Of a stretch of 64,000 nucleotides of DNA, positions 6,197-32,800 are shown piece after piece. Every line of letters starts with the position of its first letter. Within the stretch, counting starts at the first letter, position 1. Position numbers and translations under genes: made by a program. The stretch comes from Gordonia sp. ABSL11-1 (GTDB taxonomy: Bacteria; Actinomycetota; Actinomycetes; Mycobacteriales; Mycobacteriaceae), in the NCBI RefSeq assembly GCF_030315685.1, contig NZ_JASXSI010000002.1, forward strand, positions 186,001-250,000, in the 5' to 3' direction. The notes under the pieces were generated by a model, which made no database searches, was not told the origin of the DNA, and saw only the letters and a program-made list of their open reading frames with translations.

Positions 6197-7642
6197 CTAG
6201 TGTCCCGCCAGCACCTTGCCCGTGCGTGACTCCTCCCCGGGCACGTGGTCGACCGGATCGTCGTCGACCATGTCGGACTCGTTGAACGGATTGCGCCCGC
6301 TCAGCACGTCGTCGACACGCCCCTTGTCCACGGTCGACGTCCAGGCGCCGACCAGCAGCGTCGCCACCGCGTTGCCGGAGAAGTTGGTGACCGCGCGCGC
6401 CTCCGACATGAATCTGTCGATCCCCACGATCAGACCGACACCGTCGAGGAGCTCTGGCCGATGGGCCTGCAGTCCGCCGGCCAGGGTGGCCAGGCCTGCG
6501 CCACTCACGCCCGCCGCACCCTTCGAGGCGATGATCATGAACGCCAGCAGGCCGATCTGTTCGCCGATCGACAGCGGATCGCCCATCGCGTCGGCGATGA
6601 AGATCGAGGCCATCGTCAGATAGATCGCGGTGCCGTCGAGGTTGAACGAGTAGCCGGTCGGCACCACCACACCGACGGTGGTCTTCTCCACTCCGAGGTG
6701 CTCCATCTTGGCGATGAGCCGAGGCAACGCCGACTCCGATGACGACGTCGCGAAGATCAGCAGGTACTCGCGGGCCAGATACCGGACCAGGCGGAAGATG
6801 GAGACCCCGGCGACCGTCCGCAACAGCACCCCGAGGACGCCGAAGACGAAGAGGACGCAGGTGATGTAGAAGGCCAACATCAGGATCAGCAGCTGCTGCA
6901 CCGCGGCCCAGCCGGTCTGGCCGACAACGTTCGCGATGGCGCCGAACGCGCCGATCGGCGCGACCCACAAGATCATCGTCAACACCTTGAAGACCAGCTT
7001 CTGGATGTAGGAGACGGCCGTGAGGATCGGCTCGCCCGTGCGGCCCATCGCCTGGATCGCGAAACCGACGAGCAGGGCGACGAACAGCGCCTGCAACACG
7101 TTGCCCTCGGTCAGCGCGGACAGCAACGACGTCGGGATGATGCCCTCGAGGAAGTCGAGCGTGCCGCCCGATTCGCCGGCCTTCGCCGCCTGCTCGGCGC
7201 CGATTCCCGCGGTGGCGGTGACGTTGAGACCCTCTCCCGGCTTGATCAGATTGCCGACGACCAGACCGATGGCCAGGGCGATGGTCGACATGACCAGGAA
7301 GTAGACGAACGCGAGGCCGCCGACCTTGCCGACGGTCGCCGCCTTCCGGACGGACCCGATGCCGAGCACGATCGTGCAGAAGATGACCGGCGCGATCATC
7401 ATCTTGATCAGGTTGACGAACATGGTGCCCAGGAATGCCAGGTCCTTGCCCAGTTGCGGCGAGACGAGTCCGACGATGACACCGGCCACCACCGCGATGA
7501 TCACCGCGATGTACAGCCAGTGGGTGCGGTCGCGCTTCTTCGGTGTCTCGGGGATCTCCGCCGTGGACACCGGGCCGTCGGGCCCGCTCGCTCCGCCCCC
7601 GGCGCCGGGTTCATTCGGCCCGGGCTTTCGTCGCATGTTCAT
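6197..7642 (-). CDS. dctA: C4-dicarboxylate:cation symporter
   Basis: This 481-residue membrane protein belongs to the dicarboxylate/amino acid:cation symporter family and imports succinate, fumarate or malate. About eight hydrophobic segments are visible. The first ('LYIAVIIAVVAGVIVGLV') starts near residue 42, and the family signatures 'SSSESALPRLIAKME' and 'GYSFNLDGTAIYLTMAS' are intact. AGAGGA precedes the ATG at 7642. Divergent sensor kinase and regulator genes suggest dicarboxylate-induced expression. The cytoplasmic N-terminal tail (residues ~6-21) is encoded by a dispersed GC-rich repeat also found in the oxidoreductase gene near 27.0 kb and in valS. Confidence 0.92.
   Translation of the reverse strand: MNMRRKPGPNEPGAGGGASGPDGPVSTAEIPETPKKRDRTHWLYIAVIIAVVAGVIVGLVSPQLGKDLAFLGTMFVNLIKMMIAPVIFCTIVLGIGSVRKAATVGKVGGLAFVYFLVMSTIALAIGLVVGNLIKPGEGLNVTATAGIGAEQAAKAGESGGTLDFLEGIIPTSLLSALTEGNVLQALFVALLVGFAIQAMGRTGEPILTAVSYIQKLVFKVLTMILWVAPIGAFGAIANVVGQTGWAAVQQLLILMLAFYITCVLFVFGVLGVLLRTVAGVSIFRLVRYLAREYLLIFATSSSESALPRLIAKMEHLGVEKTTVGVVVPTGYSFNLDGTAIYLTMASIFIADAMGDPLSIGEQIGLLAFMIIASKGAAGVSGAGLATLAGGLQAHRPELLDGVGLIVGIDRFMSEARAVTNFSGNAVATLLVGAWTSTVDKGRVDDVLSGRNPFNESDMVDDDPVDHVPGEESRTGKVLAGH
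7581..7625. repeat. Dispersed GC-rich repeat, copy A (inside dctA)
   Basis: The block begins GGCCCGCTCGCTCCGCCCCC and ends ATTCGGCCCGGGC. Over 40 bp it matches copy B (from 26964) at 34 positions. It encodes part of the DctA N-terminal tail. The terminal ATTCGGCCCG looks like the start of a second truncated unit. Confidence 0.75.
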
Positions 7643-7715
7643 GACAGTCCTCTCGTGGTCGCCGCGTCACTTGGACCGCGGGTGGCAGGTCGGTGTATGG
7701 ATTGTGGAGCAGACC

Positions 7716-7731
7716 CGTGACGGGGGTCACG
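7716..7731. promoter_or_regulatory. Crp/GlxR-like palindrome between dctA and its sensor kinase
   Basis: CGTGACGGGGGTCACG fits the Crp/GlxR pattern TGTGA-N6-TCACA except at the two outermost bases. It lies 74 bp upstream of dctA and 53 bp upstream of the kinase start. It could instead bind the cognate response regulator. Confidence 0.4.
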
Positions 7732-7783
7732 TTTGTGTTCGTTTCGTTCATCGGGGCGGGGCTGGTCGACAAGGAGTGGGGTC

Positions 7784-9436
7784 GTGAGGATGCCGTGGGC
7801 GAGGCCGCGAACACTCGCGGGGGAGGCCGTCGCATGGCTGCTCGCGATGGTCGTGATGATCGTCGTGTGCGGCAGCGTTCTGGCGGTGCTCGATGCGCGC
7901 TACGACGCCGAGCGCACGGCGAGGCAGCAGGTGACCGCCGTGGCCGTCAGCCTCGCCGACGCCCCTTCGACGGCTGCCGCGCTCGTCTCGGCCGATCCGG
8001 CCGCTGTCCTGCAGCCGGTCACCGAGCAGGTCCGTGCGGCGACCGGCGTCGCATTCATCACCATCATGGCCGTCGACCGCACCCGGTACACGCACACGAA
8101 CCCGACGCTGATCGGACTGAGCTACATCGGATCGGTCGATCAGGCGCTGGCCGGCCGGGTGTTCACCGAGACCTACACGGGATCGCTGGGACCGTCGATC
8201 CGCACCATCGCGCCGGTCCGGGCACCCGGCGGACGCATCGTGGGTCTCGTCGCCGCCGGGATCACCCTCGACACCCTCACCGACAACTGGCTCGAACAGT
8301 TGCCGCTGATCATCGGGATCGCCGCCGCCGCGCTGGCCACCGCGGGATCCGGACTGTGGCTCATCCGGCGGCGTCTGTTGCGGCAGACGGGCGGGCTGGC
8401 GCCCAGCGAGCTGCGCCTGATGTACGAACACCACGACGCCGTGCTCCATGCCGTGCGGGAAGGTCTCGTGGTCACCGAGAACGGACGACCGGTGCTCGTC
8501 AACGACGAGGCGCGGCGCCTGCTCGTCGACGACGACGGTGAAAGGACCTCGCGGGAACCGGTCCGGTTGCCGGAGTTCCTCGCACAGGGCGACGAGACGC
8601 TCGTCGACGTGGCCTATGCGCAGAGCGGCCGCATCCTGCTGGTGAACCGATCGCCGGTGCCGTCGGACCGTGATGCCGCTGTCGTCACCATCCGCGATCG
8701 CACCGAGTTGTCCGAGGCGGTCGGAGAGCTCGACTCGACCCGACGATTCGTGGAGGCGCTGAGGTCACAGGCGCACGAGTCGGCCAACCGTCTGCACACC
8801 ATCGTCGCGATGATCGAGATGGGGCGTACCGCTGACGCTGCGCGGCTCGCGACGACCGAACTCCAACTGTCCCAACGTCTCATCGACCGGATGACGGAGG
8901 CCGTCGGAGAGCCCGCATTGTCCGCCCTGCTGCTGGGCAAGAGCGCACAGGCGGCCGAACGTGGCATCGCGCTCACCCTGACCGAGGATTCCGAACTGTC
9001 CGGCGACGACTCGGATCACCTGCTGCCGACCGGCGAGATGATCACCGTGGTCGGCAATCTCATCGACAATGCCCTCGACGCCTGCGACCCCGACGACCCA
9101 TGGGTGGAGGTGACGGTGATCGGGGATTCCTCGGTCCTGCATGTCGTCGTCGCCGACAGCGGACCCGGGATGGAACCGGATGAGTTCACCCGGGCACAGG
9201 AACGTGGCTACACCACCAAGCCGGGTGGAGACGCCGCGGGACGTGGACTCGGACTCGCCCTTGTGGCCCAGGTCGTCGCGCGCCACGAGGGCACACTGAC
9301 CGCCGAGAACACCTATGGTTCAGTCGTCTCGGTGACGATCGGCGGCACCCGGGATGTGCCCGGCGACGCGGAGCTCGACGTCGGCGGGGCCGCCGGGGTG
9401 TCCGATGACGAGGTGGAGAGGGGGACACCACGGTGA
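7784..9436 (+). CDS. Sensor histidine kinase, CitA/DcuS (DpiB) family
   Basis: This is a 550-residue membrane sensor. The order is TM1 (~12-34), an extracytoplasmic Cache-type domain, TM2 (~172-194), a PAS region ('VLHAVREGLVVTENGRPVLVNDEARRLL'), the phosphoacceptor helix 'RSQAHESANRLHTI' with His near 331, then an ATPase domain with the N box 'NLIDNALDAC' (~425) and G boxes 'DSGPG' and 'GRGLGLALV'. This architecture senses citrate or C4-dicarboxylates. I chose GTG 7784 because AAGGAG (7771-7776) precedes it; the frame is open further upstream. It overlaps the regulator gene by 4 bp and diverges from dctA. Confidence 0.88.
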   Translation: MRMPWARPRTLAGEAVAWLLAMVVMIVVCGSVLAVLDARYDAERTARQQVTAVAVSLADAPSTAAALVSADPAAVLQPVTEQVRAATGVAFITIMAVDRTRYTHTNPTLIGLSYIGSVDQALAGRVFTETYTGSLGPSIRTIAPVRAPGGRIVGLVAAGITLDTLTDNWLEQLPLIIGIAAAALATAGSGLWLIRRRLLRQTGGLAPSELRLMYEHHDAVLHAVREGLVVTENGRPVLVNDEARRLLVDDDGERTSREPVRLPEFLAQGDETLVDVAYAQSGRILLVNRSPVPSDRDAAVVTIRDRTELSEAVGELDSTRRFVEALRSQAHESANRLHTIVAMIEMGRTADAARLATTELQLSQRLIDRMTEAVGEPALSALLLGKSAQAAERGIALTLTEDSELSGDDSDHLLPTGEMITVVGNLIDNALDACDPDDPWVEVTVIGDSSVLHVVVADSGPGMEPDEFTRAQERGYTTKPGGDAAGRGLGLALVAQVVARHEGTLTAENTYGSVVSVTIGGTRDVPGDAELDVGGAAGVSDDEVERGTPR

Positions 9437-10128
9437 TCCGTGTGCTCATCGTCGAGGACGATCCGCTGATCATCGAGGCACACCGCGAATTCCTCGGCCG
9501 CATCGGCGGATTCGACATCGTGGCGTCGGTGTCCACGGCCCAGGAGGCGTTGCGCGCCGCGACGGCGGCGTCCGGATCGGGAGCGGCCGTCGATCTGGTG
9601 CTGCTCGATCTCGGGTTGCCCGACGCCGACGGGGTCGACCTCGCGTCGGCGCTCTCGGGCATCCGCCCCGTCCCCGACATCATCGCGATCACCGCGCGCC
9701 GCGACCTCGCGACGGTCCGCAGCGCGATGTCGCACGGGGTGCTGCTGTATCTGTTGAAGCCGTTCACCTTTGCCGCGTTCGCCGAGAAGATCCGGCAGTA
9801 TCTCGGCTATCGTGAGGCGCTCACCGCAGGTGAGGACGCCGTGAGCCAGCGAGATGTCGATCGGGCCCTGGCCGAACTGCGGACCACCGACACTCGTCGC
9901 ACCGCGAAGAAGGGCGCCGCGCCTGAGACCGAGGACGCCGTCGGCCGCGCGGTCCGCGACAGCGACGGCGGGCTCACGGCCTCCGAGGTGGCCGGGGTGC
10001 TCGGCAGCTCGCGGGTCACGGCCTGGCGTTACCTCGAGCGACTCGCCGATGACGGAACCGTCGAGCGGGTCACCGAATACGGCAACACCGGACGGCCCCA
10101 GGTCCGCTACCGCTGGCGCAGTCGCTGA
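9433..10128 (+). CDS. Response regulator, CitB/DpiA family
   Basis: This 231-residue protein has a receiver domain (acidic pocket 'VEDD', phosphoacceptor Asp ~59 in 'LLDLGLPDADG', and the 'LLKPF' Lys), a charged linker and a C-terminal winged helix-turn-helix ('LTASEVAGVLGSSRVTAWRYLERLADDGTVER'). It is the partner of the kinase directly upstream, overlapping it by GTGA. The likely target is the divergent dctA promoter; it may bind the palindrome at 7716-7731. It runs convergent to pepN. Confidence 0.88.
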   Translation: MIRVLIVEDDPLIIEAHREFLGRIGGFDIVASVSTAQEALRAATAASGSGAAVDLVLLDLGLPDADGVDLASALSGIRPVPDIIAITARRDLATVRSAMSHGVLLYLLKPFTFAAFAEKIRQYLGYREALTAGEDAVSQRDVDRALAELRTTDTRRTAKKGAAPETEDAVGRAVRDSDGGLTASEVAGVLGSSRVTAWRYLERLADDGTVERVTEYGNTGRPQVRYRWRSR

Positions 10129-10173
10129 CCCGGGCCGCCCGGTGAGATGTGTCCGGCGTCGGTGGTGCGTCCG

Positions 10174-12774
10174 TCAGCGGCGTGCGTCGAACTCCCGTGC
10201 ACGCAGCGAGCGGGCCACGGTGTCGCGGCCCTCGGCGATGAGACGTTGGAGGGCCGGCGGATGGTCACCGGCGAGGAACGCGTCCGCCGCGGCCAGACCG
10301 TCCTCGTCGATGGCCCAGTGCGGATAGAGGCCGACGACGACGGTCTGGGCGACCTCGCTGGACCGTCGCGCCCAGATGTCGGGGACCGCGTCGAAGTACT
10401 TCGCGACGTACGACGAGAGCAGATCCGCTTGGCCGGGCCGGGCGAAGCCCTCGATCATCGTGCGGGTGAACACATTCGACAGTGAGTCGTCCTCGGTCGC
10501 CTGCGTCCAGGCATCGGCCTTGGCCTCCGCCAACGGCCGTGACGCGCGCGCCGCGGCGGCCTGACGGGCGCCCGTGGCCGTCTTGTCCCGGGTCGCCTCG
10601 GCATCGATCACCGGGGTCGTCGCGGCGTCGGTGTCGATCGCGCCCGCCGAGGCCAGCGCGCGCACCAGCTTCCAGCGCATGTCGGTGTCGACGACCAGAC
10701 CGGCCAACCCGAGCCCCGACGGATCCTCGCCGTCGAGCAGCCCACGGATCACGGGCACCTGGTCATCGGTGACCCGACCGGCCAGCAGCGTGTTGACGAA
10801 GGCGAGTTGATGATCAGACCCGGCCTCGGCGGATCGTGCGAGCTCGAGGAGGCGCGCGCTGAACGCCGGCCATCCGGTGTCGGCTGCCCATGCCGGATCG
10901 GCGTAGGCCTCCAGCGTGCTCGTCGCCTGCAGCAGGACACGTTGGACGACACCGATCTCGGACTCGGTGGCGATGCCGCGCTGGACCAGCTCGACGAAGT
11001 CCCGGGCGGCCATCTCGGCCTGCCGGGTCATCTCCCACGCCGCCGACCACACGAGCGTGCGCGGCATCGGGTCGGCGATGTCGCCGACGCGGGAGGTCGC
11101 GGTGGACAGCGAGTCGGGATCGAGCCGCACCGAGGCGTAGGTGAGGTCGTCGTCGTTCAGCAGGATCAGTGCGCCGCGCGCAACGCCGACCAGCTCGGTG
11201 ACATCGGTGCGTTCGCCCTCGACGTCGAGTTCGACGCTGCGCGTGCGTTCCAGTGTGCCCGAACCGTTGTCGTCGTACACACCGACACGGAGCCGGTGCA
11301 CGCGGGTCTCCCCGGCGCCCGGCGCAGCACCGTCCTGCACGATGGTGAAGCGTGTGAAGGCGCCGTCGGCGTCGAGTTCGAAGTCCGGTCGGATGACATT
11401 GATACCGGTGGTCTTGAGCCACTGGGATCCCCAGTCCGACAGATCGCGGCCCGACGACTTCTCCAGTGCGGCGAGGAGATCGGTGAACCCGGCGTTGTCG
11501 AACTTGTGCGCGTCGAAGTAGTCGCGCAGGCCCGCGAGGAAGTCCTCCAGACCCACGTAGGCGACCAGCTGCTTGAGGACCGATGCGCCCTTGGCGTAGG
11601 TGATCCCGTCGAAGTTCACCTCGACCGCGGCGATGTCGGGGATGTCGGCGGCGACGGGGTGGGTGGAGGGCAGCTGATCCTGCCGGTATGCCCAGGACTT
11701 CTCGACGTTGGCGAAGGTGGTCCAGGCGTTGGTGTACTCCGTGGCCTCGGACTGGCACAGCACCGACGCGAAGGTGGCGAAGGACTCGTTGAGCCAGAGG
11801 TCATCCCACCAACCCATGGTGACCAGATCGCCGAACCACATGTGCGCCATCTCGTGCAGGACGGTCTCGGCGCGCCGCTCGTAGAGGTACTTCGTCACCC
11901 GCGACCGGAACACGTAGTCCTCGAGGAAGGTGACCGCGCCGGCGTTCTCCATCGCGCCGGCGTTGAACTCGGGAACGAACAGCTGGTCGTACTTGCCGAA
12001 GGCGTAGGGGATACCGAAGTTCTTGTGGTAGAAGCCGAATCCCTGCTTGGTCTCGGTGAAGAGACGATCGGCGTCCATGTGTTCGGCCAACGATGCGCGG
12101 CAGTAGATGCCCAGTGGGATGGTGCCGTGGTCATCGGAGTAGGTGTCGGTCCACTCGGCGTACGGGCCGGCGATCAGGGCGACGAGATAGGTACTCATCA
12201 GCGGTGTCTCGCGGAAGCGGTGCACCGTGCCCCCGTTCGGCCCGGACTCGGCCTTGAGCGCGTTCACCACAGCTGCGTTCGAGATCACCTTCCAGTCCTC
12301 GGGTGCCGTGACGGTGATCGTGTAGGTCGCCTTGAGATCGGGCTGATCGAAACACGCGAACATGCGCTTGGCGTCGGCGGTCTCGAACTGGGAGTACAGA
12401 TACACCGAGTCGTCGGTGGGATCGACGAAGCGGTGCAGGCCCTCACCGGTGTTGGAGTACGCGCAGTCGGCGACCACGGTGAGCGTGTTGTCGGCGGTCA
12501 GCGACGGCAGGGTGATGCCGACCGACTCGTCGAAGTCGGATACGTCGAGATCGGTGCCGTTGAGCGTGGCCGAGATCAGGCCGGGCGCCACGAGGTCGAT
12601 GAACGTTTCCGATCCGGGGGTGGCCGTGAACGTCACCGTGGTCACCGACCGGAACGTCTCGGTCCCGGGCGCGCCCTGGCCGTCGGTGAGGTCCAGGTCG
12701 ATCTCGTACGCGCCGACGTCGACGGTCGCGGCGCGCTCACGTGCTTGGTCTCGGGTCAGGTTGGGAGCAGTCAC
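10174..12774 (-). CDS. pepN: Aminopeptidase N, M1 family
   Basis: This 866-residue zinc aminopeptidase removes N-terminal residues from peptides in the cytoplasm. The substrate-binding 'GAMEN' lies near residue 272 and the zinc motif 'HEMAHMWFGD' near 307, with the third ligand Glu in 'LNESFATF'. The C-terminal ERAP1-like helical region is complete. Length fits the family. It starts at GTG 12774. It is the homologue of Rv2467, divergent from the Rv2466c homologue as in M. tuberculosis. Confidence 0.95.
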   Translation of the reverse strand: MTAPNLTRDQARERAATVDVGAYEIDLDLTDGQGAPGTETFRSVTTVTFTATPGSETFIDLVAPGLISATLNGTDLDVSDFDESVGITLPSLTADNTLTVVADCAYSNTGEGLHRFVDPTDDSVYLYSQFETADAKRMFACFDQPDLKATYTITVTAPEDWKVISNAAVVNALKAESGPNGGTVHRFRETPLMSTYLVALIAGPYAEWTDTYSDDHGTIPLGIYCRASLAEHMDADRLFTETKQGFGFYHKNFGIPYAFGKYDQLFVPEFNAGAMENAGAVTFLEDYVFRSRVTKYLYERRAETVLHEMAHMWFGDLVTMGWWDDLWLNESFATFASVLCQSEATEYTNAWTTFANVEKSWAYRQDQLPSTHPVAADIPDIAAVEVNFDGITYAKGASVLKQLVAYVGLEDFLAGLRDYFDAHKFDNAGFTDLLAALEKSSGRDLSDWGSQWLKTTGINVIRPDFELDADGAFTRFTIVQDGAAPGAGETRVHRLRVGVYDDNGSGTLERTRSVELDVEGERTDVTELVGVARGALILLNDDDLTYASVRLDPDSLSTATSRVGDIADPMPRTLVWSAAWEMTRQAEMAARDFVELVQRGIATESEIGVVQRVLLQATSTLEAYADPAWAADTGWPAFSARLLELARSAEAGSDHQLAFVNTLLAGRVTDDQVPVIRGLLDGEDPSGLGLAGLVVDTDMRWKLVRALASAGAIDTDAATTPVIDAEATRDKTATGARQAAAARASRPLAEAKADAWTQATEDDSLSNVFTRTMIEGFARPGQADLLSSYVAKYFDAVPDIWARRSSEVAQTVVVGLYPHWAIDEDGLAAADAFLAGDHPPALQRLIAEGRDTVARSLRAREFDARR

Positions 12775-12890
12775 AGTCGGGTTCTTCCACCTCTCGAATC
12801 GCGGTCGCTGGCCAGCTTAACGGGAATGACCGCGAGGGAATCTGGTTGTAGTTTCGGGAGTGACTCGTAACAACACGGGAAGGGTCAGCG

Positions 12891-13523
12891 ATGGCAGCAG
12901 AGGCGCAGTCAGATCAGCAGAAGCGGGACCGGGTGGACTTCTGGTTCGACCCGCTGTGTCCCTGGTGTTGGATCACCTCCCGTTGGATTCTCGAAGCCGA
13001 ACAGGTGCGGCCGATCGACGTGAATTTCCACGTGATGAGCCTTGCCGTGCTCAACGAGGGCAAGGACATCCCGGAGGAGTACCGCGAGGGGCTCAAGCAC
13101 GCGTGGCGCCCGGTCCGGGTGATCGCCGCGGCCCGGGCGAGCAAGGGCGACGAGATCCTGGCGCCTCTGTACACCGCCATGGGCACACTCATCCACAACA
13201 AGGGCGTCAAGGACTTCGATCAGGTGATCGCCGAGTCGCTCGCGGAGGTCGATCTCGATCCGGGTCTGGCGGCCGCCGCCGACTCCGACGAGTACGACGA
13301 ATGGATCCGGACCAGTCATCACGAGGGCATGGACAAGGTCGGCGACGACGTCGGCACACCCACGATCCACGTCAACGGCGTGGCGTTCTTCGGTCCCGTG
13401 TTGTCGCGGATCCCGCGCGGCGAGACCGCGGGAACGGTGTGGGACGGCGCGGTCGCGCTGTCGTCGTACCCGCATTTCTTCGAACTCAAGCGCAGCCGCG
13501 ACGAGGACCCGCAGTTCGACTGA
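12891..13523 (+). CDS. DsbA-like mycothiol-dependent reductase (Rv2466c-like)
   Basis: This 210-residue thioredoxin-fold protein has the active-site motif 'CPWC' in '[16 protein letters not shown]', and the cis-Pro loop 'GTPTIHVNG'. Rv2466c is a mycothiol-dependent oxidoreductase important in oxidative stress and in activating nitro-aromatic drugs. GGAAGGG precedes the ATG. It diverges from pepN. Presence of this enzyme fits a mycothiol-producing actinobacterium. Confidence 0.88.
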
Positions 13524-13583
13524 GCTCCATCCCCACCGGATCGATCCCGACGGTGCCCGGTCGCGGGGCATCGTCGGGAGACG

Positions 13584-14594
13584 TCAGATCTTGGGTGGCA
13601 TCTCCAGCCCGTTGGGCAGGGTGCCCGGAGCGATCGCGGCGGGATGCGGCGGCGGCGGAATCGGTACGGCGTTCCCGCTGCCGGCACCGCGGACGATCGT
13701 CTTCGGGCGGAAGAGCATGGCACCCGCCCGGGTCCGGTCCCGCAAGGCAGCGGCCCGCCAGGTGAGGACGGGGTGGGACGCGAGGGCGTTGACCGCCCAC
13801 GTGAAGACCCCCCGCTCGTGTGTGGCGCGGTCGGCGAACTGATCGAAGTCGACGGCCGACAGCATGTACTTGCCCGCCGACAGCACGCCGATCGCCCCGG
13901 GCGCGCCCGACGGTTGCGTGTAGTAGCCGTAGTTGTCGGCGGTGTACTCCTGGGCGCGGGACAGCGCCGCGCCCAGGAACGGGATGTTCATGCCGACGCC
14001 GGTGCCCAGCTGGCGCCAGTACGACGTGTGACCGGCGGCGATGTGTCCCACCTCGTGGCCGATGATGAACTCGAGGGCCTGCGGATCGCGGGCGCGTCCG
14101 CCGACCTCGAAGAGATCGGAGTACACGACCACGAACCGACGAAAGCCGTGTCCGGAGGCGAAGGCGTTGATCATGCCGTTGCCGAGCACCACGTAGGCGT
14201 CGGGTACGTACTCCAGGCCGTAGCGAGCGGCCGCCTCGACGACCATCCGATAGCCGTCGGGGAACTGGCTCGGCGTCATCTGGACCCCGTTGACCCGGGG
14301 TTGGGCATAGGTCAGACCTCGGACCAGCAGCAAGAGCAGGGGAGCGGCCAACAGGGCGAGGAAGTACTCGCTGAACTGTCCGGACACCACCAGCGCTACG
14401 ATCGCGGCATATCCGATGACGGTGATCGCGACGATCAGCACCAGCATCGGGATCTCCCACGGATGCAGCCGTGGGCGCTGGGCGTACGGTGCCGGTGGCA
14501 GCCAGTACGCATCCGGAGGCGGCGCGGGCCGGTCGGCCGCCGAGGGGGAGCCGGCGACCCCGGGGACGTTGGGTATCGGCGAATGAGCGTCCAC
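13584..14594 (-). CDS. Membrane-bound M48 family zinc metalloprotease
   Basis: This 336-residue protein has a Pro-rich cytoplasmic N-terminus, two hydrophobic segments (~48-110) and the zinc motif 'HEVGH' near residue 179. The third ligand Glu is probably in 'AQEYTADNYGYY'. Such HtpX/Ste24-like proteases degrade membrane or misfolded proteins. The start is GTG 14594, only 22 bp from the divergent rpiB ATG. A TAGATT box lies 6 nt before the GTG on this strand, which suggests a leaderless mRNA. No homologue sits here in M. tuberculosis. Confidence 0.85.
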   Translation of the reverse strand: MDAHSPIPNVPGVAGSPSAADRPAPPPDAYWLPPAPYAQRPRLHPWEIPMLVLIVAITVIGYAAIVALVVSGQFSEYFLALLAAPLLLLLVRGLTYAQPRVNGVQMTPSQFPDGYRMVVEAAARYGLEYVPDAYVVLGNGMINAFASGHGFRRFVVVYSDLFEVGGRARDPQALEFIIGHEVGHIAAGHTSYWRQLGTGVGMNIPFLGAALSRAQEYTADNYGYYTQPSGAPGAIGVLSAGKYMLSAVDFDQFADRATHERGVFTWAVNALASHPVLTWRAAALRDRTRAGAMLFRPKTIVRGAGSGNAVPIPPPPHPAAIAPGTLPNGLEMPPKI

Positions 14595-14600
14595 GCGACC

Positions 14601-14610
14601 AATCTATAGT
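14601..14610. promoter_or_regulatory. Overlapping divergent -10 boxes for the M48 protease and rpiB
   Basis: On the plus strand TATAGT (14605-14610) is followed by 6 nt and the rpiB ATG. On the minus strand TAGATT (plus AATCTA, 14601-14606) is followed by 6 nt and the protease GTG. Both would give leaderless messages. The two boxes share two bases, so polymerase could use only one at a time. Confidence 0.65.
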
Positions 14611-14616
14611 GACGGC

Positions 14617-15093
14617 ATGCGTGTCTACCTCGGTGCCGACCATGCCGGATTCGAACTGAAGAACCAGATCGCCGACCACTTGCGGTCGGCGGGCCACGAC
14701 GTCGTCGACTGCGGCGCGCACACCTACGACGCGCGGGACGACTATCCGGCCTTCTGCATCGACGCCGCGCGGCGCACGGTCGCCGACCCGGGCAGCCTCG
14801 GAATCGTGCTGGGCGGCAGCGGTAACGGCGAGCAGATCGCCGCGAACAAGGTGCCCGGCGCGCGGTGTGCCCTCGCATGGAGTGTCGAGACGGCCCAACT
14901 CGCACGTCAGCACAACAATGCCCAGCTCATCGGCATCGGCGGGCGCATGCACAGCACGGAGGAGGCATTGGCCATCGTCGACGCCTTCATCGCGACCCCC
15001 TGGTCGGACGAGGCACGACACCAACGACGGATCGACATCCTGGCCGAGTACGAGCGCACCGGTGAGGCACCGGCCGTTCCCGGCCAGAACTGA
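14617..15093 (+). CDS. rpiB: Ribose-5-phosphate isomerase B
   Basis: This 158-residue enzyme interconverts ribulose-5-phosphate and ribose-5-phosphate in the pentose phosphate pathway. Signatures are 'GADHAGFELKNQIADHL', 'DYPAFC', 'GIVLGGSGNGEQIAANKVPG' and 'RQHNNAQLIGIGGR'. It starts at ATG 14617 directly downstream of a -10 box, with no ribosome site, so it is probably translated leaderless. nei follows 20 bp later, as in Rv2465c-Rv2464c. Confidence 0.95.
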   Translation: MRVYLGADHAGFELKNQIADHLRSAGHDVVDCGAHTYDARDDYPAFCIDAARRTVADPGSLGIVLGGSGNGEQIAANKVPGARCALAWSVETAQLARQHNNAQLIGIGGRMHSTEEALAIVDAFIATPWSDEARHQRRIDILAEYERTGEAPAVPGQN

Positions 15094-15113
15094 CCGACCG
15101 GCGCCGATAGGAG

Positions 15114-15932: not shown

Positions 15933-15960
15933 CGACTGATCGAGATGCGCCGCGTCGCGC

Positions 15961-16095: not shown

Positions 16096-16118
16096 GACGG
16101 TTACGGCTTTCTGAACAG

Positions 16119-21613: not shown

Positions 21614-21623
21614 CGTCAGAACG

Positions 21624-23430: not shown

Positions 23431-23728
23431 GCCGACGACCTGCATCGCCGAGCAGCCGGAGCCGGGCCCTGCGCCCGACGCCGGCTGTTCTGCTCTCAGC
23501 GAAGACCGGTGCCATCGGGACTGTCCGTCCGACGCCATTGGTTAGTGTCGGTGAGGACATCGCGATGAACCCGGGGCAGACAGAGTGAACCCGGACGAGA
23601 CGCGGGGAATCCACGAGACGACCGGCGCCGCGGGCGGAGCGCGCGGGCGGGTCAATAAGCTAGACCCCCGAAACACCGTTGACGCGGCCACGGCCGCAAC
23701 GGCACCACGACAGGCAAAGGTAGGAACA

Positions 23729-24343: not shown

Positions 24344-24386
24344 TCTCGTGTCCATCCCTCGCCACCACAACACCACGGAGCAGACG

Positions 24387-25091
24387 ATGACCAACTCCCT
24401 CTCGCTCGACACGCTGCCCGCCGACGTCGCGGCCGGAATCCCCGCGTCGGCGCTGGCGCTCAAGAGCATCGAGGCGCGCTACATCCTCCCGCAGTTCATC
24501 GAGCACACCCCCAACGGGCAGCGACAGTACGACCCGTACGCGAAGCTGTTCGAGGAGCGCATCGTGTTCGTGGGTACGCCGATCGATCAGACCGTCGCGA
24601 ACGACGTGATGGCCCAGCTGCTGGTCCTCGAGTCGCAGGACCCCGACCGCGACATCACGATGTACATCAACTCGCCCGGCGGCAGCGTTCCCGACATGCT
24701 CGCGATCTACGACACGATGCAGTATGTCCACTGCGACATCGTCACCGTGTGTCTCGGTGAGGCGGCGTCGGCGGCGGCGATCCTGCTCGCCGGCGGCACT
24801 CCGGGCAAGCGCGCCGCGCTGCCGAACGCGACGATCCTGATCCACCAGCCGCGCACCGGCGGCGCCTATCAGGGACAGGTGTCCGACCTGGAGATCCAGG
24901 CCGCGGAGATCGAGCGCATCCGCAACCGGCTCGACGAGATCCTGTCGCATCACACGGGTCAGGACACGGACAAGATCCGCCGGGACACCGACCGCGACAA
25001 CATCCTCACCGCAGAGGCGGCCAAGGAGTACGGGATCATCGACGAGGTGTTCGAGTACCGCAAGAAGTCGATGAAGAAGGCCTCCTCCTAG
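24387..25091 (+). CDS. clpP2: ATP-dependent Clp protease proteolytic subunit 2
   Basis: This 234-residue protein is the second ring of ClpP1P2; in mycobacteria both are essential and only the hetero-complex is active. The catalytic Ser is in '[16 protein letters not shown]', the His in '[11 protein letters not shown]', and the Asp near 'RDTDRDN'. The ATG at 24387 is preceded by GGAG (24377-24380). The 30-residue N-terminal propeptide region is longer than in E. coli ClpP, as in other actinobacteria. It is in an operon with clpP1. Confidence 0.95.
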
Positions 25092-25414
25092 GAGGCGCAG
25101 ATCGCGCATCGGCCCGACACGCCGGGTCGATGTGCGTGCCCCGAAGTGTGGCCGGCGTCATCCTTGACGTCTGTGTCCATGGTCGGGCGCGGGCGGCAGG
25201 CAAGGCGGCCACGACAATCCACAGACCGTTCGGCCACACGGCCGGACGGCCCGAAACTACCCGCACGACATTTGGCCTTATCGGTCGAAGTTCGGGCGGC
25301 ACGCGGGTACCGTCGAGTTACTGGGCGATCCGATTGCCGAACGGTGACCCATGCCCGGGCGCGCGGAGATGGTCCGTCGGTACGACCGGAGCAACAAGGA
25401 AGGTGCAGCACGAG
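25092..25414 (+). other. Intergenic region upstream of clpX
   Basis: No convincing gene is present in these 323 bp. The clpX frame is open upstream to 25130, but those residues are not ClpX-like. The region should hold the clpX promoter and leader. I could not identify a consensus promoter or a ClgR-type palindrome. Confidence 0.5.
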
Positions 25415-26695
25415 ATGGCGCGAATCGGAGACGGTGGCGATCTGTTGAAGTGCTCTTTCTGCGGAAAGAGTCAGAAGCAGGTCAAGAAGCTGATCGCCGG
25501 TCCCGGCGTGTACATCTGCGACGAGTGCATCGACCTGTGCAACGAGATCATCGAAGAGGAGCTCGCCGAGAACGGCGACGTGAAACTCGACGAGCTGCCC
25601 AAGCCGATGGAGATCCGCGACTTCCTCGAGAACTACGTCATCGGGCAGGACACCGCCAAGCGCACACTCGCTGTGGCCGTCTACAACCACTACAAGCGCA
25701 TCCAGGCAGGGGAGAAGAAGGACTCGCGCAGCGGCGAGACCGTCGAACTCGCCAAGTCGAACATCCTGATGCTCGGACCCACCGGCTGCGGCAAGACCTA
25801 CCTCGCACAGACGCTGGCCAAGATGCTCAACGTGCCCTTCGCCATTGCCGACGCCACGGCACTGACCGAAGCCGGCTACGTCGGTGAGGACGTCGAGAAC
25901 ATCCTCCTCAAGCTGATCCAGGCGGCCGACTACGACGTCAAGCGTGCGGAGACCGGCATCATCTACATCGACGAGGTCGACAAGATCGCGCGCAAGAGCG
26001 AGAACCCGTCGATCACCCGCGACGTCTCCGGAGAAGGAGTTCAGCAGGCTCTGCTGAAGATCCTCGAGGGCACGCAGGCGTCGGTGCCGCCGCAGGGTGG
26101 TCGTAAGCACCCGCATCAGGAGTTCATCCAGATCGACACCACCAACGTGCTGTTCATCGTCGCGGGTGCGTTCGCCGGGCTGGAGAAGATCGTCTCCGAA
26201 CGGATCGGCAAGCGCGGCATCGGCTTCGGCAACGAGGTCACCAGCCGCGACGAGGTCGACACCACCGACCACTTTGCCGAGGTCATGCCCGAGGACCTCA
26301 TCAAGTTCGGCCTGATCCCCGAGTTCATCGGCCGCCTGCCGGTCGTCGCATCGGTGACCAACCTGGACAAGGAATCGCTCGTCAGCATCCTGTCGGAGCC
26401 GAAGAACGCCTTGGTGAAGCAATACACCAAGCTGTTCGAGATGGACAACGTCGAACTCGAGTTCGCCCATGACGCCCTCGAGGCCATCGCCGATCAGGCC
26501 ATCCACCGCGGTACAGGAGCGCGAGGACTGCGGGCCATCATGGAAGAGGTCCTGTTGCCGGTGATGTACGACATCCCGAGCCGCGACGACGTCGAGAAGG
26601 TCGTCGTCACCGGAGAGACGGTGCGCGACAACGTCCTTCCGACCATCGTGCCTCGCAAGGACAGCCGCGACGAACGGCGCGACAAGACCGCCTGA
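25415..26695 (+). CDS. clpX: Clp protease ATP-binding subunit ClpX
   Basis: This 426-residue AAA+ unfoldase, the same length as the M. tuberculosis protein, feeds substrates to ClpP1P2. It has the N-terminal C4 zinc-binding domain ('[15 protein letters not shown]' to 'CDECIDLC'), Walker A '[15 protein letters not shown]', Walker B '[10 protein letters not shown]', and 'RGIGFGNEV' near the ClpP loop. AAGGAAGG lies ~10 nt upstream of the ATG. It ends just before a hairpin convergent with the oxidoreductase gene. Confidence 0.97.
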
Positions 26696-26716
26696 CCCGG
26701 GCATCGTAGACACGCC

Positions 26717-26751
26717 AATCCCGGCCATACTCACGCGGTGTGGCCGGGATT
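26717..26751. terminator. Hairpin between clpX and the convergent oxidoreductase gene
   Basis: AATCCCGGCCA (26717-26727) pairs with TGGCCGGGATT (26741-26751). The 11-bp stem lies 21 bp after the clpX stop and 28 bp from the stop of the convergent gene. Confidence 0.75.
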
Positions 26752-26779
26752 CTCGTCTGATCGGCCCAGGTGGGTGCGC

Positions 26780-29152
26780 CTACGTGGTGGCCGGTTCGAG
26801 CCGGATCACCACCGCCTTCGACACCGGGGTGTTGGAGTCCTTCGCCACCGACCCCAGCGGCACCAGCGGGTTCGTCTCCGGGTAATACGCGGCGGCGTTT
26901 CCGCGAGGCGTCGAATACTCGACGATCTCGAAACCGGTCACCCGCCGTTCCTCGATACGATCTGGCCCGCTCGCTTCGCTCCCGGCGCCGGCGCGATTCG
27001 GCCCGCTCGCTTCGCTCCCGGCGCCGGCGAACTCCGAGATGATGTCGACCTGCTGGCCCGCCCGCAATCCGAAGGCGGTGATGTCGGCAGGGTTCATCAT
27101 GATGACCCGACGATTGCCCTTGATGCCCCGGTAACGATCGTCGTGGCCGTAGATCGTCGTGTTGTACTGATCATGGCTTCGAAGCGTCTGCAGGATCAGC
27201 CGCCCCTCCGGCACCTCCACCCACTCCAGTGGGTTGACCGCGAAGTTCGCGCGTCGATTCGGTGTCGTGAACTCGCGGAGATCCCGCGGAGGGTGCGGTA
27301 AAACGAACCCGTCGGACATCCGTACCCGGATGTTGAAATTCTCGAAACCGGGGATCACGCGAGAGATGTGATCGCGGATCGCGTCGTAGTCGCCCCGTAG
27401 CCGCTGCCAGGGCACGGCGTGGTCGGCCCCGAGCACAGCGGTGGCGAGGTCGCAGACGATCGCGACCTCACTGCGCAACTCCGACGACGCCGGCGGCAAC
27501 GACCCGCGCGACAGGTGGACCACCGACATCGAGTCCTCGACCGAGACCTGCTGGGCCACACCGCCGATCACGTCCTTGTCGGTCCGTCCCAAGGTGGGCA
27601 GGATCAACGCCGCACGGCCTGTCGCGACATGCGACTCGTTCAGTTTGGTGCTGATCTGCACGGTCAGGGCGCACCGTGCCAAGGCCGTCCGCGTGGCCTC
27701 CGTATCCGGTGTCGCGGCGACGAAGTTCCCGCCCATCGCGACGAACAACCGGACCTCGCCCCTGGCCATCGCGCCGATCGACGCGACCGTGTCGAAGCCG
27801 TGCTCGCGTGGGCTGACGATGCCGAACTCGGCGTCCTGAGCGGCGAGGAACGACTCGGGCATCTTCTCGAAGATGCCCATGGTGCGGTCGCCCTGGACAT
27901 TGGAATGTCCGCGCACCGGACACAATCCGGCGCCCGGCTTGCCGATCATGCCGCGCAACAGCAGCACGTTGGTGCCCTCACCGATCGTGGCCACCGCGTG
28001 CCGATGCTGCGTCAGCCCCATCGCCCAGCACAGCACGATCCGCTCCGACCGCGCGACCGCATCGGCGAGGTCGGCGATCGCCTCGTAGGTGAGTCCCGTG
28101 GCGGCGAGGATGTCGGCGAAGTCGACGTCCTCGAGGAGCCGGAGGTAGTCGTCGACGCCGGCGCAGCGCTCGTCGAGGAAGTCCCGGTCGAACACGGTTC
28201 CGGGCGCGGCGCGCTCGGCGTCGAGTAACAGGCGGGCGACACCGCGGAACAGCGCCATGTCGCCGCCGAGACGGATTTGGAGGAACTCGTCGGTGAGTTT
28301 GACGCCGTGCCCGACGACGCCGCCGACCTTCTGCGGGTCCTTGAACCGCATCAGTCCCGCCTCGGGCAGCGGGTTGATGGCGACGATCCGGGCGCCGTTG
28401 TGCTTGGCCTTCTCCAGGGTGGAGAGCATCCGCGGGTGGTTGGTCCCCGGATTCTGACCCGCGATGATGATCAGGTCGGCGGCCTCGAGATCGGGCACGG
28501 TGACCGATCCCTTGCCGATGCCGATCGAGGCGCCCAGGGCCGCTCCCGACGACTCGTGACACATGTTGGAGCAGTCCGGGAGATTGTTGGTGCCGACGCT
28601 GCGCGCGAACAACTGATACACGAACGCGGCCTCGTTGCTCGTTCGGCCCGAGGTGTAGAAGACCGCCTCGTCCGGTGACGACATCGCGGCGAACTCGTCG
28701 GCGATGATCCTGTCCGCCTGGGCCCAGGTCACGGGACGATAGTGGGTGTCCCCGGGGGCCAGATAGACCGGATGAGTGAGCCGGCCCTGCTGCGACAGCC
28801 AGTAGCCGGACCTCTCCCGCAGGTCGTCGACCGAGTGCGTGGCGAAGAACTCGGGTGTCACCCGCCGCTTGGTCGCCTCCTCGGCGACGGCCTTGGCGCC
28901 GTTCTCGCAGAACTCGGCATGCTTGCGGTGACCCGGGGTCTCGGGCCAGGCGCATCCGGGGCAGTCGAAACCGTCGCGCTGATTGAGCTTACTCAGCGTG
29001 CGGGCCGTGCGCAGCGGCCCCATCTGTTCCATCCCGCGCGCGAGTGCGACCGCGACCGCCGGGACACCCGCCGCGTATTCCTTCACATGGCCGACGTGGA
29101 CGTCGTCCGGTTCGGTGATGGGTGTTTCGTCGCGGGGCGGCACAGAACTCAT
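26780..29152 (-). CDS. Molybdopterin oxidoreductase alpha subunit, YdeP/FdhF-like
   Basis: This 790-residue DMSO-reductase-family protein has the YdeP layout: 'DCPGCAWPE' near residue 62 instead of a full four-Cys Fe-S motif, 'YTSGRTSNEAAF', 'DCSNMCHESSG' near 195, 'AGQNPGTNHPRM', and a C-terminal cofactor-binding domain. It may act as a formate dehydrogenase-like enzyme; no beta subunit is nearby. I chose ATG 29152 ('MSSVPPRDE'); the frame extends to 29203. Residues ~705-729 are an in-frame tandem duplication made by a dispersed repeat inserted in the cofactor domain. It diverges from mobA, whose product completes the cofactor. Confidence 0.88.
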   Translation of the reverse strand: MSSVPPRDETPITEPDDVHVGHVKEYAAGVPAVAVALARGMEQMGPLRTARTLSKLNQRDGFDCPGCAWPETPGHRKHAEFCENGAKAVAEEATKRRVTPEFFATHSVDDLRERSGYWLSQQGRLTHPVYLAPGDTHYRPVTWAQADRIIADEFAAMSSPDEAVFYTSGRTSNEAAFVYQLFARSVGTNNLPDCSNMCHESSGAALGASIGIGKGSVTVPDLEAADLIIIAGQNPGTNHPRMLSTLEKAKHNGARIVAINPLPEAGLMRFKDPQKVGGVVGHGVKLTDEFLQIRLGGDMALFRGVARLLLDAERAAPGTVFDRDFLDERCAGVDDYLRLLEDVDFADILAATGLTYEAIADLADAVARSERIVLCWAMGLTQHRHAVATIGEGTNVLLLRGMIGKPGAGLCPVRGHSNVQGDRTMGIFEKMPESFLAAQDAEFGIVSPREHGFDTVASIGAMARGEVRLFVAMGGNFVAATPDTEATRTALARCALTVQISTKLNESHVATGRAALILPTLGRTDKDVIGGVAQQVSVEDSMSVVHLSRGSLPPASSELRSEVAIVCDLATAVLGADHAVPWQRLRGDYDAIRDHISRVIPGFENFNIRVRMSDGFVLPHPPRDLREFTTPNRRANFAVNPLEWVEVPEGRLILQTLRSHDQYNTTIYGHDDRYRGIKGNRRVIMMNPADITAFGLRAGQQVDIISEFAGAGSEASGPNRAGAGSEASGPDRIEERRVTGFEIVEYSTPRGNAAAYYPETNPLVPLGSVAKDSNTPVSKAVVIRLEPATT
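26964..27029. repeat. Dispersed GC-rich repeat, copy B: two tandem units inside the oxidoreductase gene
   Basis: Unit 1 starts at 26964 and unit 2 at 27000, a period of 36 bp (12 codons). The first 30 bp of the two units are identical and begin GGCCCGCTCGCTTCGCTCCC. On the coding strand they give 'GAGSEASGPNRA' then 'GAGSEASGPDR'. Related sequence is at 7581 and, inverted, at 31699. Confidence 0.8.
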
Positions 29153-29201
29153 ATCCCCATCTTGCCCCCAGACGCCACGGCCTTCACAGAGACTGGTTCC
29201 C

Positions 29202-29810
29202 ATGGCGCAACAGCATGCAGGTCAGCAGGTGGCGGGAATCGTGCTCGCGGGCGGTCGTTCCCGTCGGATGGGGCAGGACAAGGCGGCGTTGGACTGGGAG
29301 GGCGAACCCATGCTCGCCCGGGTCGTGCGGGTCGTCGGGGAACGGTGCCAACCCGTGTTCGTCGTCGCGCCCGAGGAGTCGGCGGCCTATCGCACACTGT
29401 TCGGCAGCGGCGGCCCGGAGGCCCGCTGGGTCACCGACGAGGCGCCGGGAACCGGACCCCTCGGCGGCCTCGCCGTCGGGTTGTCGCGCGCGTCCGCGGC
29501 CGGGGCGCAGTGGGCGTTCGTGTGCGCCACGGACATGCCGCTGATCACGGCGGAACTGATCGACGAGTTGCTGCGTGGGGTCACGGAGTCGACGCAGGCG
29601 GTCATCGCGACAGATGCCCACCGTGACCATCCGATGGCCGGGGTGTACCGAACCGATGCGGCCACCGTCGTCGGGGAGCTGACCGCCTCGGGAGAGCGGA
29701 GGATGCTCGCCGCGCTCGACGCACTGATGACCCACCGGGTGGCCGTCAGCGACGTCAACTGGCTCACGAACGTCAACGCGCCGGAGGACGTCCACCGCCT
29801 GCGCGTCTGA
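29202..29810 (+). CDS. mobA: Molybdenum cofactor guanylyltransferase
   Basis: This 202-residue enzyme attaches GMP to molybdopterin. The N-terminal nucleotide-binding signature 'GIVLAGGRSRRMGQDKAAL' is intact, followed by 'GPLGGLAVGL', 'CATDMPLI' and 'HPMAGVY', as in MobA. Length matches M. tuberculosis Rv2453c (201). The ATG at 29202 lies 49 bp from the divergent oxidoreductase start, which is a likely client of this cofactor. Confidence 0.93.
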   Translation: MAQQHAGQQVAGIVLAGGRSRRMGQDKAALDWEGEPMLARVVRVVGERCQPVFVVAPEESAAYRTLFGSGGPEARWVTDEAPGTGPLGGLAVGLSRASAAGAQWAFVCATDMPLITAELIDELLRGVTESTQAVIATDAHRDHPMAGVYRTDAATVVGELTASGERRMLAALDALMTHRVAVSDVNWLTNVNAPEDVHRLRV

Positions 29811-29871
29811 GCTCGCCCGGGACGTGCGTCGGCAAAGCCGTCCGGGCTGCAGTCGGGCGCGGCCCGTTCCC

Positions 29872-29877
29872 TAAGAT
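29872..29877 (+). promoter_or_regulatory. -10 box of a probable leaderless valS message
   Basis: TAAGAT is followed by 6 nt and then the GTG at 29884. No Shine-Dalgarno sequence lies between. Transcription would start at or next to the GTG. Confidence 0.55.
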
Positions 29878-29883
29878 TGTGGG

Positions 29884-32800
29884 GTGATGACACCCGACCC
29901 CACCCGCGAGCTGCCGAAGTCCTGGGATCCCGCCGAGCACGAGTCCCGGCTCTATCAGGGCTGGGTGGACGCCGGATACTTCACGGCCGACGCATCGAGT
30001 GACAAGCCCGCGTTCTCGATCGTGATCCCGCCGCCCAACGTGAACGGTTCACTGCACATGGGCCACGCCTATGAGCACGTCCTGATGGACGCGCTGTCGC
30101 GCCGGCGGCGCATGCAGGGCTACGAGGTGCTCTGGCTGCCGGGTATGGATCATGCGGCGATCGCGATGCAGACGATGGTCGAGCGCAAGCTGGCCGCCGA
30201 GGGACTCACCCGCGACGACCTCGGCCGCGAGGCGTTCATCGAACGCGTCTGGGTGGAGAAGGCGGAGATCGGCGACAACATCGGCACGCAGATGCGTCGG
30301 CTCGGCGACGGCGTCGACTGGTCGCGTGAGCGATTCACCATGGACGACGGACTGTCCCGCGCGGTGCAGACCGTCTTCAAACAGATGTACGACGACGGTC
30401 TGATCTATCGGGCCGAACGGTTGGTCAACTGGTCGCCGGTCCTCAAGACCGCGATCAGCGACATCGAGGTCAGCTACGCCGACGTCGAAGGCGAGCTGGT
30501 CAGCTTCCGGTACGGCAGTCTCGACGATGCCGAACCGCATATCGTCGTCGCCACGACACGCCTCGAGACGATGCTCGGGGACACCGCCATCGCGGTCCAC
30601 CCCGACGACGAGCGCTACGCCCATCTGATCGGGACCGAGCTCGCGCATCCGTTCGTCGACCGTCTGATCCCCGTCATCGCCGACGACTACGTCGACCCCG
30701 AATTCGGTAGTGGCGCAGTCAAGATCACCCCGGCGCACGATCCGAACGACTTCGCGATCGGGCAGCGCCACGACCTGCCCATGCCGACGATCATGGACGA
30801 CGAGGCCCGCATCGCCGACACCGGTACGCAGTTCGACGGGATGGACCGCTTCGAGGCGCGCGCCAAGGTCCGCGAGGCGCTCGCAGAACAGGGCCGCATC
30901 ATCAAGGAGGTGCGTCCGTACCTGCACAGTGTCGGCCACTCCGAGCGCACCGGCGAGCCGATCGAACCCCGGCTGTCGATGCAGTGGTGGGTGAAGGTCG
31001 AATCTCTTGCCAAGGCCGCGGGCGACGCGGTTCGCAACGGCGACACCGTGATCCACCCCGCGTCGATGGAGCCGCGCTGGTTCGGCTGGGTCGACAACAT
31101 GTACGACTGGTGCATCTCACGTCAGCTGTGGTGGGGCCACCGGATCCCGATCTGGTACGGCCCCGACGGTGAGATCGTCTGTGCCGGGCCCGATGACGAC
31201 ATCCCCGAGGGCTACGTGCAGGAGACCGACGTCCTCGACACCTGGTTCTCGTCCGGACTGTGGCCCTTCTCCACCCTCGGATGGCCCGACAAGACCGATG
31301 ACCTGGCGAAGTTCTATCCGACCTCGGTGCTCGTGACCGGCTACGACATCCTGTTCTTCTGGGTGGCCCGGATGATGATGTTCGGCACCTACGTCGCGCC
31401 CCAGTTCGGTGAGGACGGGTCCGGCGACGACAAGAAGGTCCCGTTCCACAACCTGTTCCTGCACGGCCTGGTCCGCGACGAGCACGGGCGCAAGATGTCG
31501 AAGTCGAAGGGTAACGGGATCGATCCGTTGGACTGGGTCGAGCGGTTCGGTGCCGACGCCCTACGGTTCACCCTGGCGCGCGGCGCCAACCCGGGCAGCG
31601 ACATCTCGGTCGGCGAGGACCATGCCCAGTCGTCACGCAACTTCGCCACCAAGCTCTTCAACGCGACCAAGTTCGCGATGATGAATGGTGCTGTGGTGCC
31701 GGGAGCGGAGCGAGCGGGCCACGTGGGTGCTGTGGTGGCGGGAGGGGAGCGAGCCGGGGAGTTGCCGGATCGGGCGTCGCTCACCGAGGCGGATCGCTGG
31801 ATCCTGGATCGCCTGGACGAGGTCCTGGCCGACGCCGACGCCGGATACGAGGCGTACGAGTTCTCCAAGGCCTGCGAGGCGCTGTATCACTTCGCCTGGG
31901 ACGAGGTCTGTGACTGGTATCTCGAACTCGCGAAGGTTCAGTACGCCGAGAACGACGAGGCCCGTTCACGATCCACCTCGCTGGTACTCGGGACCGTCCT
32001 CGACGCCCTGCTGCGACTGCTGCATCCGGTGATGCCGTTCGTCACCGAGGTTCTGTGGACCGCGCTGACCGGAAAGGAGTCGGTGGTGGTGGCCGACTGG
32101 CCACAGCGCGGCGACGCGACCGCCGATCCGGCGGCCGCCCGGCACATCGACGATCTGCAGCGTCTGATCACCGAGGTCCGCCGGTTCCGAAGCGACCAGG
32201 GACTCAAGCCGGGACAGCGCGTCGAGGCCGAGATCGATGGACTCGACGTCGCGGGTCTGGCCCCGTCGCGCGCCTATCTCGACTCCTTGGCACGGCTCGA
32301 ACCGGCCGGTGAGTCGTTCGCGGCCACGGCGACCATCGACGTGCGGCTGTCGTCGGCGACGGTGACCGTCCGCATCGACACCTCCGGCACGGTCGATGTC
32401 GAGGCCGAGCGCAAACGACTGGCCAAGGACCTCGCGGCCGCGGAGAAGGAATTGGCCGGCACCACGGCCAAACTCGGCAACGAGCAGTTCCTGTCGAAAG
32501 CGCCCGACCACGTCGTCGCGAAAATCCGCGACCGCCGGCAGGTGGCCACCGAGGAGGTCGAACGGCTCGGCGCCGCCCTCAACCGCACTGAGCGGCTCGT
32601 GAGCCGGCGCGACACCGGGCACGGCAGTGCCGACGATGAGGAGGTCGACGCGCTCGACCGCGACCACCTCGGCGATGATCCCGGAGATCGCGACGAGTTC
32701 GACGTCGATCCGCTCGGCGCCGCGCCGCTGCCCACCGACCTCGGGTCGCTGCTGGCAGGTCGTGGCGGTGCCCCCGATGACCTCTACGCCGACGATGCCG

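Follow-up and report, generated by a model that had tools for sequence, protein, structure and literature searches.

Repetitive extragenic palindromic (REP) sequences and REPINs are short imperfect hairpins that occur in tens to hundreds of copies, and small palindromic repeats reportedly lie in frame within protein genes of Wolbachia. Miniature inverted-repeat transposable elements (MITEs), among them Correia, ERIC, RUP and QMITE, are non-autonomous and able to fuse in frame with genes; the sources drawn on here give AT-richness, terminal repeats and target duplications as typical of them. Rickettsia palindromic elements (RPEs), as portrayed in portions of two papers, are small palindromes found in frame in unrelated protein genes (PMC2229807, PMC10969869). 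The repeat analysed here lies in a stretch of 64,000 nucleotides from Gordonia sp. ABSL11-1 (NZ_JASXSI010000002.1, positions 186,001–250,000 of the forward strand; hereafter the window). Its unit comprises a constant 26-base core, CGGCCCGCTCGCTNCGCTCCCGGCGC (derived from 176 distinct arrays with 337 cores, partial units included), and a site-specific linker of about 10 bases, and it occurs singly or in tandem.

Like the RPEs, the Gordonia repeat is inserted in frame in unrelated protein genes, namely valS, an oxidoreductase gene, dctA and seven further sites. With a 26-bp core and a 36-bp unit, it is several times smaller than the RPEs, for which the source portions give 105–146 bp and long stem-loops, and, unlike them, it has a GNA loop, is GC-rich, forms tandems with site-specific linkers and is actinobacterial. 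It resembles REP/REPIN sequences as a short imperfect hairpin in many copies, but it is not confined to intergenic DNA, has a period-and-linker structure and occurs in a genus in which no Y1 transposase was found (0/59 genomes). Unlike MITEs, it is GC-rich, shorter than 40 bp and without a consistent target duplication. Mycobacterial interspersed repetitive units (MIRUs) and other interspersed tandem units of mycobacteria are similar in being actinobacterial, dispersed and present as variable-number tandem units that can keep the reading frame, but MIRUs are longer and mostly intergenic. No description of this Gordonia repeat was found in the titles and abstracts of openly licensed literature. 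It is proposed, with a probability of about 0.6, that the element is a mobile non-coding repeat whose core would fold as single-stranded DNA into a GNA-capped hairpin, and that host replication or repair, not a dedicated transposase, is the likely means of its spread.

A first-pass annotation of the window had recognised the repeat in three genes and suggested a whole-genome search, which shows that this reach was too small: the genome (5.70 Mb, 121 contigs) contains 33 arrays. The 22-base core, searched with Y at position 14 and up to three mismatches, matched 60 times, far above the chance rate, and its reversed control once. Across 59 genomes of the genus, 1,410 cores were found at up to one mismatch, compared with five reversed-control matches, and 56 of these genomes carry the repeat, at 0 to 113 copies per genome over the whole set. 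As most pattern searches used core positions 4–23, conservation there is partly built in, with the outer arms and the free base N14 exempt. The array sets used below (176 arrays, 262 arrays and 209 cores) include a few stray loci from other organisms. In the copy positions inspected by eye, no replication-strand bias was evident, the origin position being assumed and gene direction a confounder.

In a sample of the family, 71/301 genomes contained the repeat. Broken down by genus in our own count, carriers made up 29/30 genomes of the window's genus, 16/16 of g30, 8/8 of g18, 5/9 of g10 and 1/1 of g12; 12 other family genomes had one or two matches each, about as rare as reversed-control matches. 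Among the matches listed, Gordonia, Tsukamurella and Williamsia were the multi-locus carriers, and at least about a dozen other organisms had one record each. A contig labelled Kitasatospora arboriphila also carries an array (L092), with flanks 95–98% identical to Williamsia muralis, and is likely a contaminant contig or the product of a recent transfer. Among plasmids, one from Tsukamurella tyrosinosolvens gave the single full-length match, at 89.7%, and 13 other records matched in part. Carriage by phages was rejected, the exact 22-base pattern being found in 0 viral contigs; phage records gave four weak matches, none in a Gordonia phage, in a collection whose number of Gordonia phages was unchecked.

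Within the window, the 12-mer GGCCCGCTCGCT is located at 7581 (+), 26964 (+), 27000 (+) and 31709–31720 (−); at up to one mismatch it was found seven times against 1.57 expected, a number reached by 0/100 shuffles. Near the N-terminus of dctA (6197–7642, minus strand), a 26-bp core at 7580–7605 (+) is followed at 7606–7622 (+) by the 10-bp linker CGGGTTCATT and the truncated start of a second unit (CGGCCCG). The FdhF/YdeP-family oxidoreductase gene (26780–29203, minus strand) holds cores at 26963–26988 (+) and 26999–27024 (+), separated by the 10-bp linker CGGCGCGATT at 26989–26998 (+). The valS copies, in an open frame on the plus strand (29884–34287), have the opposite orientation to the others in the window: a core at 31696–31721 (−), a 13-bp linker at 31722–31734 (−) and a diverged second core at 31735–31760 (−). 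The first-pass annotation was accurate in placing these copies, in giving periods of 36 bp in the oxidoreductase gene and 39 bp in valS, and in noting that the valS 22-mer is one base off the dctA copy and one base off the oxidoreductase copies. It was also right that all are read in frame, as GAGGGASGP or GAGSEASGP in dctA and the oxidoreductase and as PGAERAG in valS.

Comparison with orthologues, in samples of 29/58 other genus genomes for valS and 23/58 for the oxidoreductase, showed that the window copies are missing from most relatives; conservation of the same residues in distant orthologues was not seen. At valS, 26/29 aligned relatives are coreless, with gaps of 10, 13 or 19 bases, while G041 has half a core, G018 one core and G045 one core in reversed orientation. 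Relative to the commonest gap, G018 and G045 have gained 36 bp and the window insert 57 bp. The oxidoreductase site is empty in 21/23 aligned relatives; G041 carries three cores there, G018 carries two and a partial one, and the net gains (+57 in the window, +84 and +75) are multiples of 3, none of them of 36. The dctA core is missing in 7/7 relatives where the gene was placed, the G041 stretch having no dctA match; the N-terminal tail is variable there and the gain is no clean 36.

Seven further sites were compared in five relatives and counted only where both anchors could be placed. Relative to the nearest empty relative, the gain was exactly 36 bp at 6/6 single-core sites and 108 bp at the three-core site. 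G041, the closest relative (89–93% flank identity), could be placed at six of the seven sites and lacks the insert at every one of them, yet holds 57 copies of its own, which indicates fast turnover. Individual sites are less uniform: at L023 the 36-bp difference holds with G041 only, the other four relatives having gaps of 30, 42, 30 and 129 against 48; at L034 the difference is 36 for G041 and 39 for four relatives; at L008 the core is also present in G013; and of the two relatives in which L024 could be located, the first is empty and the second holds three cores, the G041 match there exceeding the query stretch in length. Most compared sites are lineage-specific, and a single copy adds 36 bp, that is, the core and about 10 bp. 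The L023 site in G013, G018, G042 and G050 has partial, different-length or three-copy inserts at one position. As read from these alignments, the L023 variants and the valS cores in both orientations point to recurrent insertion at permissive spots.

The reading frame of the host genes argues that constraint acts on the DNA. Where a single coding frame runs through both flanks, as it does in 103 arrays, five of the six frames are used: the main frame, which reads GAGSxASGP, in 71, two other frames on the same strand in 11 and 8, and two on the opposite strand in 8 and 5. When the core is read in the main frame, N14, the free base, occupies a second codon position and the silent positions are fixed. 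Together with the absence from most orthologues, these results uphold the first-pass view of a DNA-level, mobile element. The core is stop-free in every frame except one, in which a stop arises only if N is A. In that N = A frame, two Williamsia loci have the repeat at the end of a gene that looks PhoH-like, and the listed proteins terminate inside it. At L142, L080, L054 and L071, a repeat with N = A overlies the stop codon at the end of a gene, which we take to be PhoH-like.

When 262 arrays were classed by their surroundings, 103 were coding in one frame, 46 had shifted flanks, 10 had opposite flanks, 89 were edge cases and 14 were non-coding; for 2,000 random spots in the same loci, the corresponding counts were 1,098, 99, 48, 656 and 99. 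The repeat thus does not avoid genes; compared with the random spots, it has somewhat fewer plain coding positions and more frame-shifted flanks. Array periods are multiples of 3 in 37/38 coding arrays, compared with 3/7 non-coding arrays, in which the unit lengths are 35, 35, 36, 36, 37, 38 and 39. Selection on the reading frame therefore probably shapes which insertions survive.

The core is predicted, from covariation of four stem pairs, to fold as a short imperfect hairpin with a bulged stem of about seven pairs. The highest mutual information of all position pairs tested was found for pairs 3:26, 1:28 and 2:27. Among 209 flank-independent cores, Watson–Crick combinations were counted 165 times at pair 1:28 (shuffled mean 100.7), 185 times at 2:27 (162.3), 183 times at 3:26 (120.3) and 206 times at 11:17 (196.4), values reached by 0/5000 shuffles; six slid control pairs stayed at about chance. 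Pair 11:17 was followed across the 59 genomes in our own count, in which 71 of 76 double-mutant cores are Watson–Crick (66 A-T and 5 C-G, with 4 T-T and 1 C-T), and the doubles exceed the single intermediates (28 and 12). Counted likewise by arrays, doubles comprise 33 paired and 4 unpaired cases, and singles 16 and 10. On the GNA-loop strand, the commoner of the two intermediates leaves a G-T wobble, which weakly favours that strand.

On the GNA strand, the tip of the stem reads GCGNAGC, the free base N14 being its N (C97, T58, G42 and A12 over the 209 cores). To our knowledge, the folding model gives no bonus to GNA loops; its fold of the consensus has the same shape, and two variants leave inner pairs open. 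Comparison of four array loci with Rfam gave one sub-threshold match (E 0.94), and a known RNA family was rejected. Mini-hairpins of the form GCGNAGC are, in the part of the source drawn on here, extraordinarily stable and nuclease-resistant with any N (PMC4686876). The repeat has the sequence features of this class: its loop is GNA, N can be any base, and the stem includes two or more G-C pairs; in that same part of the source, d(GCGNAGC) figures as a chemical structure in aptamers rather than as the core of a mobile repeat (PMC4686876).

Of 176 arrays, 89 are single and 87 have two to six units, with a unit-to-unit distance of 36 bp in 111/161 cases. The linker is mostly uniform inside one array and different from array to array. 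In 66 complete arrays, its prefix matches the array's own right flank over a mean of 3.5 bases (shuffled 1.3) and its suffix the own left flank over 2.6 bases (shuffled 0.6), which fits local tandem duplication. Linkers of 10 bases from different arrays agree at nine or more bases in 13/699 pairs within a genome and 13/1,487 pairs between genomes; with sample sizes matched, G018 alone was higher inside (0.34) than outside (0.17, 0.22), and G055 and G000 were not. As linkers are slightly, but no more than slightly, alike to a greater degree within than between genomes, a difference driven by G018, the linker is usually not moved along, and carry-over of the whole linker from a donor array was rejected as the rule.

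Of the gene names assigned in the first-pass annotation, valine–tRNA ligase and the FdhF/YdeP-family oxidoreductase are backed by models above their cut-offs, and dctA only partly: the Pfam dicarboxylate symporter family scores above its cut-off, and DctA models score best yet fall below theirs. The valS insert (about residues 605–626) sits in a gap of the alignment to 1gax, a solved valyl-tRNA synthetase, and directly precedes the Pfam anticodon-binding domain (637–783). In Gordonia sp. ABSL11-1, valS and folC form a single stop-free open frame (29884–34287), possibly a gene fusion; the junction is likewise stop-free in one frame in 3/28 relatives (G041, G018 and G009), has a stop in the valS frame in 19/28 and places the genes in different frames in 6/28. 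An exact 12-mer also occurs at 10205–10216 (−), at the 3′ end of the open frame 10174–12774, where the remaining core is diverged; it is perhaps a decayed copy or a chance match. A perfect 15-bp tandem repeat of 5.5 copies lies at 39396–39478 of the window.

As the REP-type transposase expected for such a hairpin was not found, the host's replication or repair enzymes are the likely agents of spread, and the element is probably, on the combined analysis, a selfish mini-hairpin. It is proposed that the GNA-loop strand would extrude as a hairpin, or survive nucleases, during replication or repair. A gap or stalled fork may then take up the hairpin, by copying or by capture, and so acquire linker and core, and slippage would amplify the unit locally into tandem arrays, some with a partial terminal unit. 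Of the insertions into coding sequence, selection would mostly retain those whose length is a multiple of 3 and whose translation is a flexible Gly/Ala/Ser linker, GAGS(E/A/G/V)ASGP. A more specific version, put forward only tentatively, is that the transmitted unit may be the nuclease-resistant GNA hairpin of about 26–36 bases itself, which host enzymes would insert at gaps or stalled forks with no need of a transposase.

Several observations weigh against this proposal. Two genomes of the genus, G002 and G036, have no copy in any of four pattern searches. Taken by themselves, predicted folding energies lend the hairpin no support: 131 and 133 of 200 shuffles fold as well in DNA (133 for the GNA strand), and 46 and 49 of 200 fold as well as the core in RNA. 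Stem pairs 5:23, 6:22, 7:21 and 12:16 are nearly invariant and hence uninformative, and pair 4:25 is non-Watson–Crick in 20/209 cores, uncompensated (two are T-G). The A-T doubles at 11:17 would also arise from two common transitions, so the weight of that pair rests on doubles outnumbering singles. A same-strand frame shift separates the flanks in 46/159 arrays with coding sequence on both sides (random 99/1,245), an excess perhaps partly due to gene ends, and the non-coding periods number just seven. The right side of inserts continues into the host, 7.3/12 bases matching the empty site (shuffled 4.4), and the left 12 bases match at 5.5/12 against 4.3 shuffled, a value reached by the best of 741 shuffles; this weak left-side match means that a clean target-site duplication is not established. 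The very high-copy genomes G022, G055, G015 and G048 all have RVT_1, and the gene-family search covered Y1_Tnp and RVT_1 only.

An unlikely alternative is a MITE of very small size that a resident insertion sequence mobilises in trans through its DDE transposase, leaving a target duplication of about 10 bp. Duplication-like 10-bp sites do occur, as at L033, where 7–10/12 host bases match both sides, and in the flanks of L135 and L184. Furthermore, the left and right sides of single copies are 0.395 identical at an offset of 36 bases, against 0.314 ± 0.014 when shuffled, with a smaller excess at offset 33 (0.292 vs 0.257) and none clear at other tested offsets. However, a flanking repeat of at least six bases is present in just 7/86 single copies, where 4.1 are expected, the seven non-coding unit lengths vary from 35 to 39, and the stem has only about seven pairs.

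Reverse transcription of a hairpin RNA, with target-primed insertion, variable duplications and 5′-truncated units, appears improbable. It would explain why partial cores of at least four bases at the exact 10-base spacing are commoner on the left (35/262 arrays) than on the right (11/262), other tested spacings giving 0 to 4 and 0 to 7. RVT_1 is also present in 29/59 genomes, including the two with the highest copy numbers (G022 and G055), but it is missing from five of the twelve highest-copy genomes, namely G018 (80 copies), G031 (63), G012 (56), G013 (55) and G042 (48), and copy number does not follow its occurrence (Spearman 0.18, p 0.16). An obligatory reverse transcriptase was rejected on these grounds. 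It is similarly doubtful that the repeat is a functional DNA site, such as a binding or a replication or repair signal, kept for the benefit of the host: core and stem are strongly conserved and present genus-wide, but the compared sites are mostly unshared by close relatives and species differ in copy number, with 0 to 113 copies.

It is very improbable that the repeat is of REP/REPIN type and is mobilised by a REP-associated tyrosine transposase (RAYT) or another Y1 (HUH) transposase that recognises the hairpin. A short imperfect hairpin with a bulged base and many dispersed copies is what such a system would produce, and the first-pass annotation had suggested the link. Y1_Tnp (PF01797) was nevertheless absent from the 59 genus genomes in a search that was positive in 5/14 control genomes, which largely refutes it, and the 14/262 arrays that are non-coding are close to the random-spot rate (99/2,000). 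Finally, a protein-level linker motif GAGSEASGP, evolved or shuffled repeatedly, would suit the single frame of 71/103 coding arrays but is refuted, with hardly any credence left to it, by the four other frames on both strands in 32/103, the fixed silent and variable second codon positions, the reversed valS copy and the 14 non-coding arrays.

A mobile, GNA-capped hairpin repeat of this kind would tie the chemistry of ultra-stable GNA mini-hairpins to natural genome invasion, and would show a 36-base element spreading without a Y1 transposase. If the hairpin is itself the transmitted unit, it would be among the smallest selfish DNA elements known and would give proteins ready-made flexible linkers of 12 residues. 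The insertions amount to a natural experiment that reveals where protein loops, even those of a valine–tRNA ligase, can accommodate 12 extra residues, and the arrays, as tandem markers that evolve fast, could be used to type Gordonia, Williamsia and Tsukamurella.

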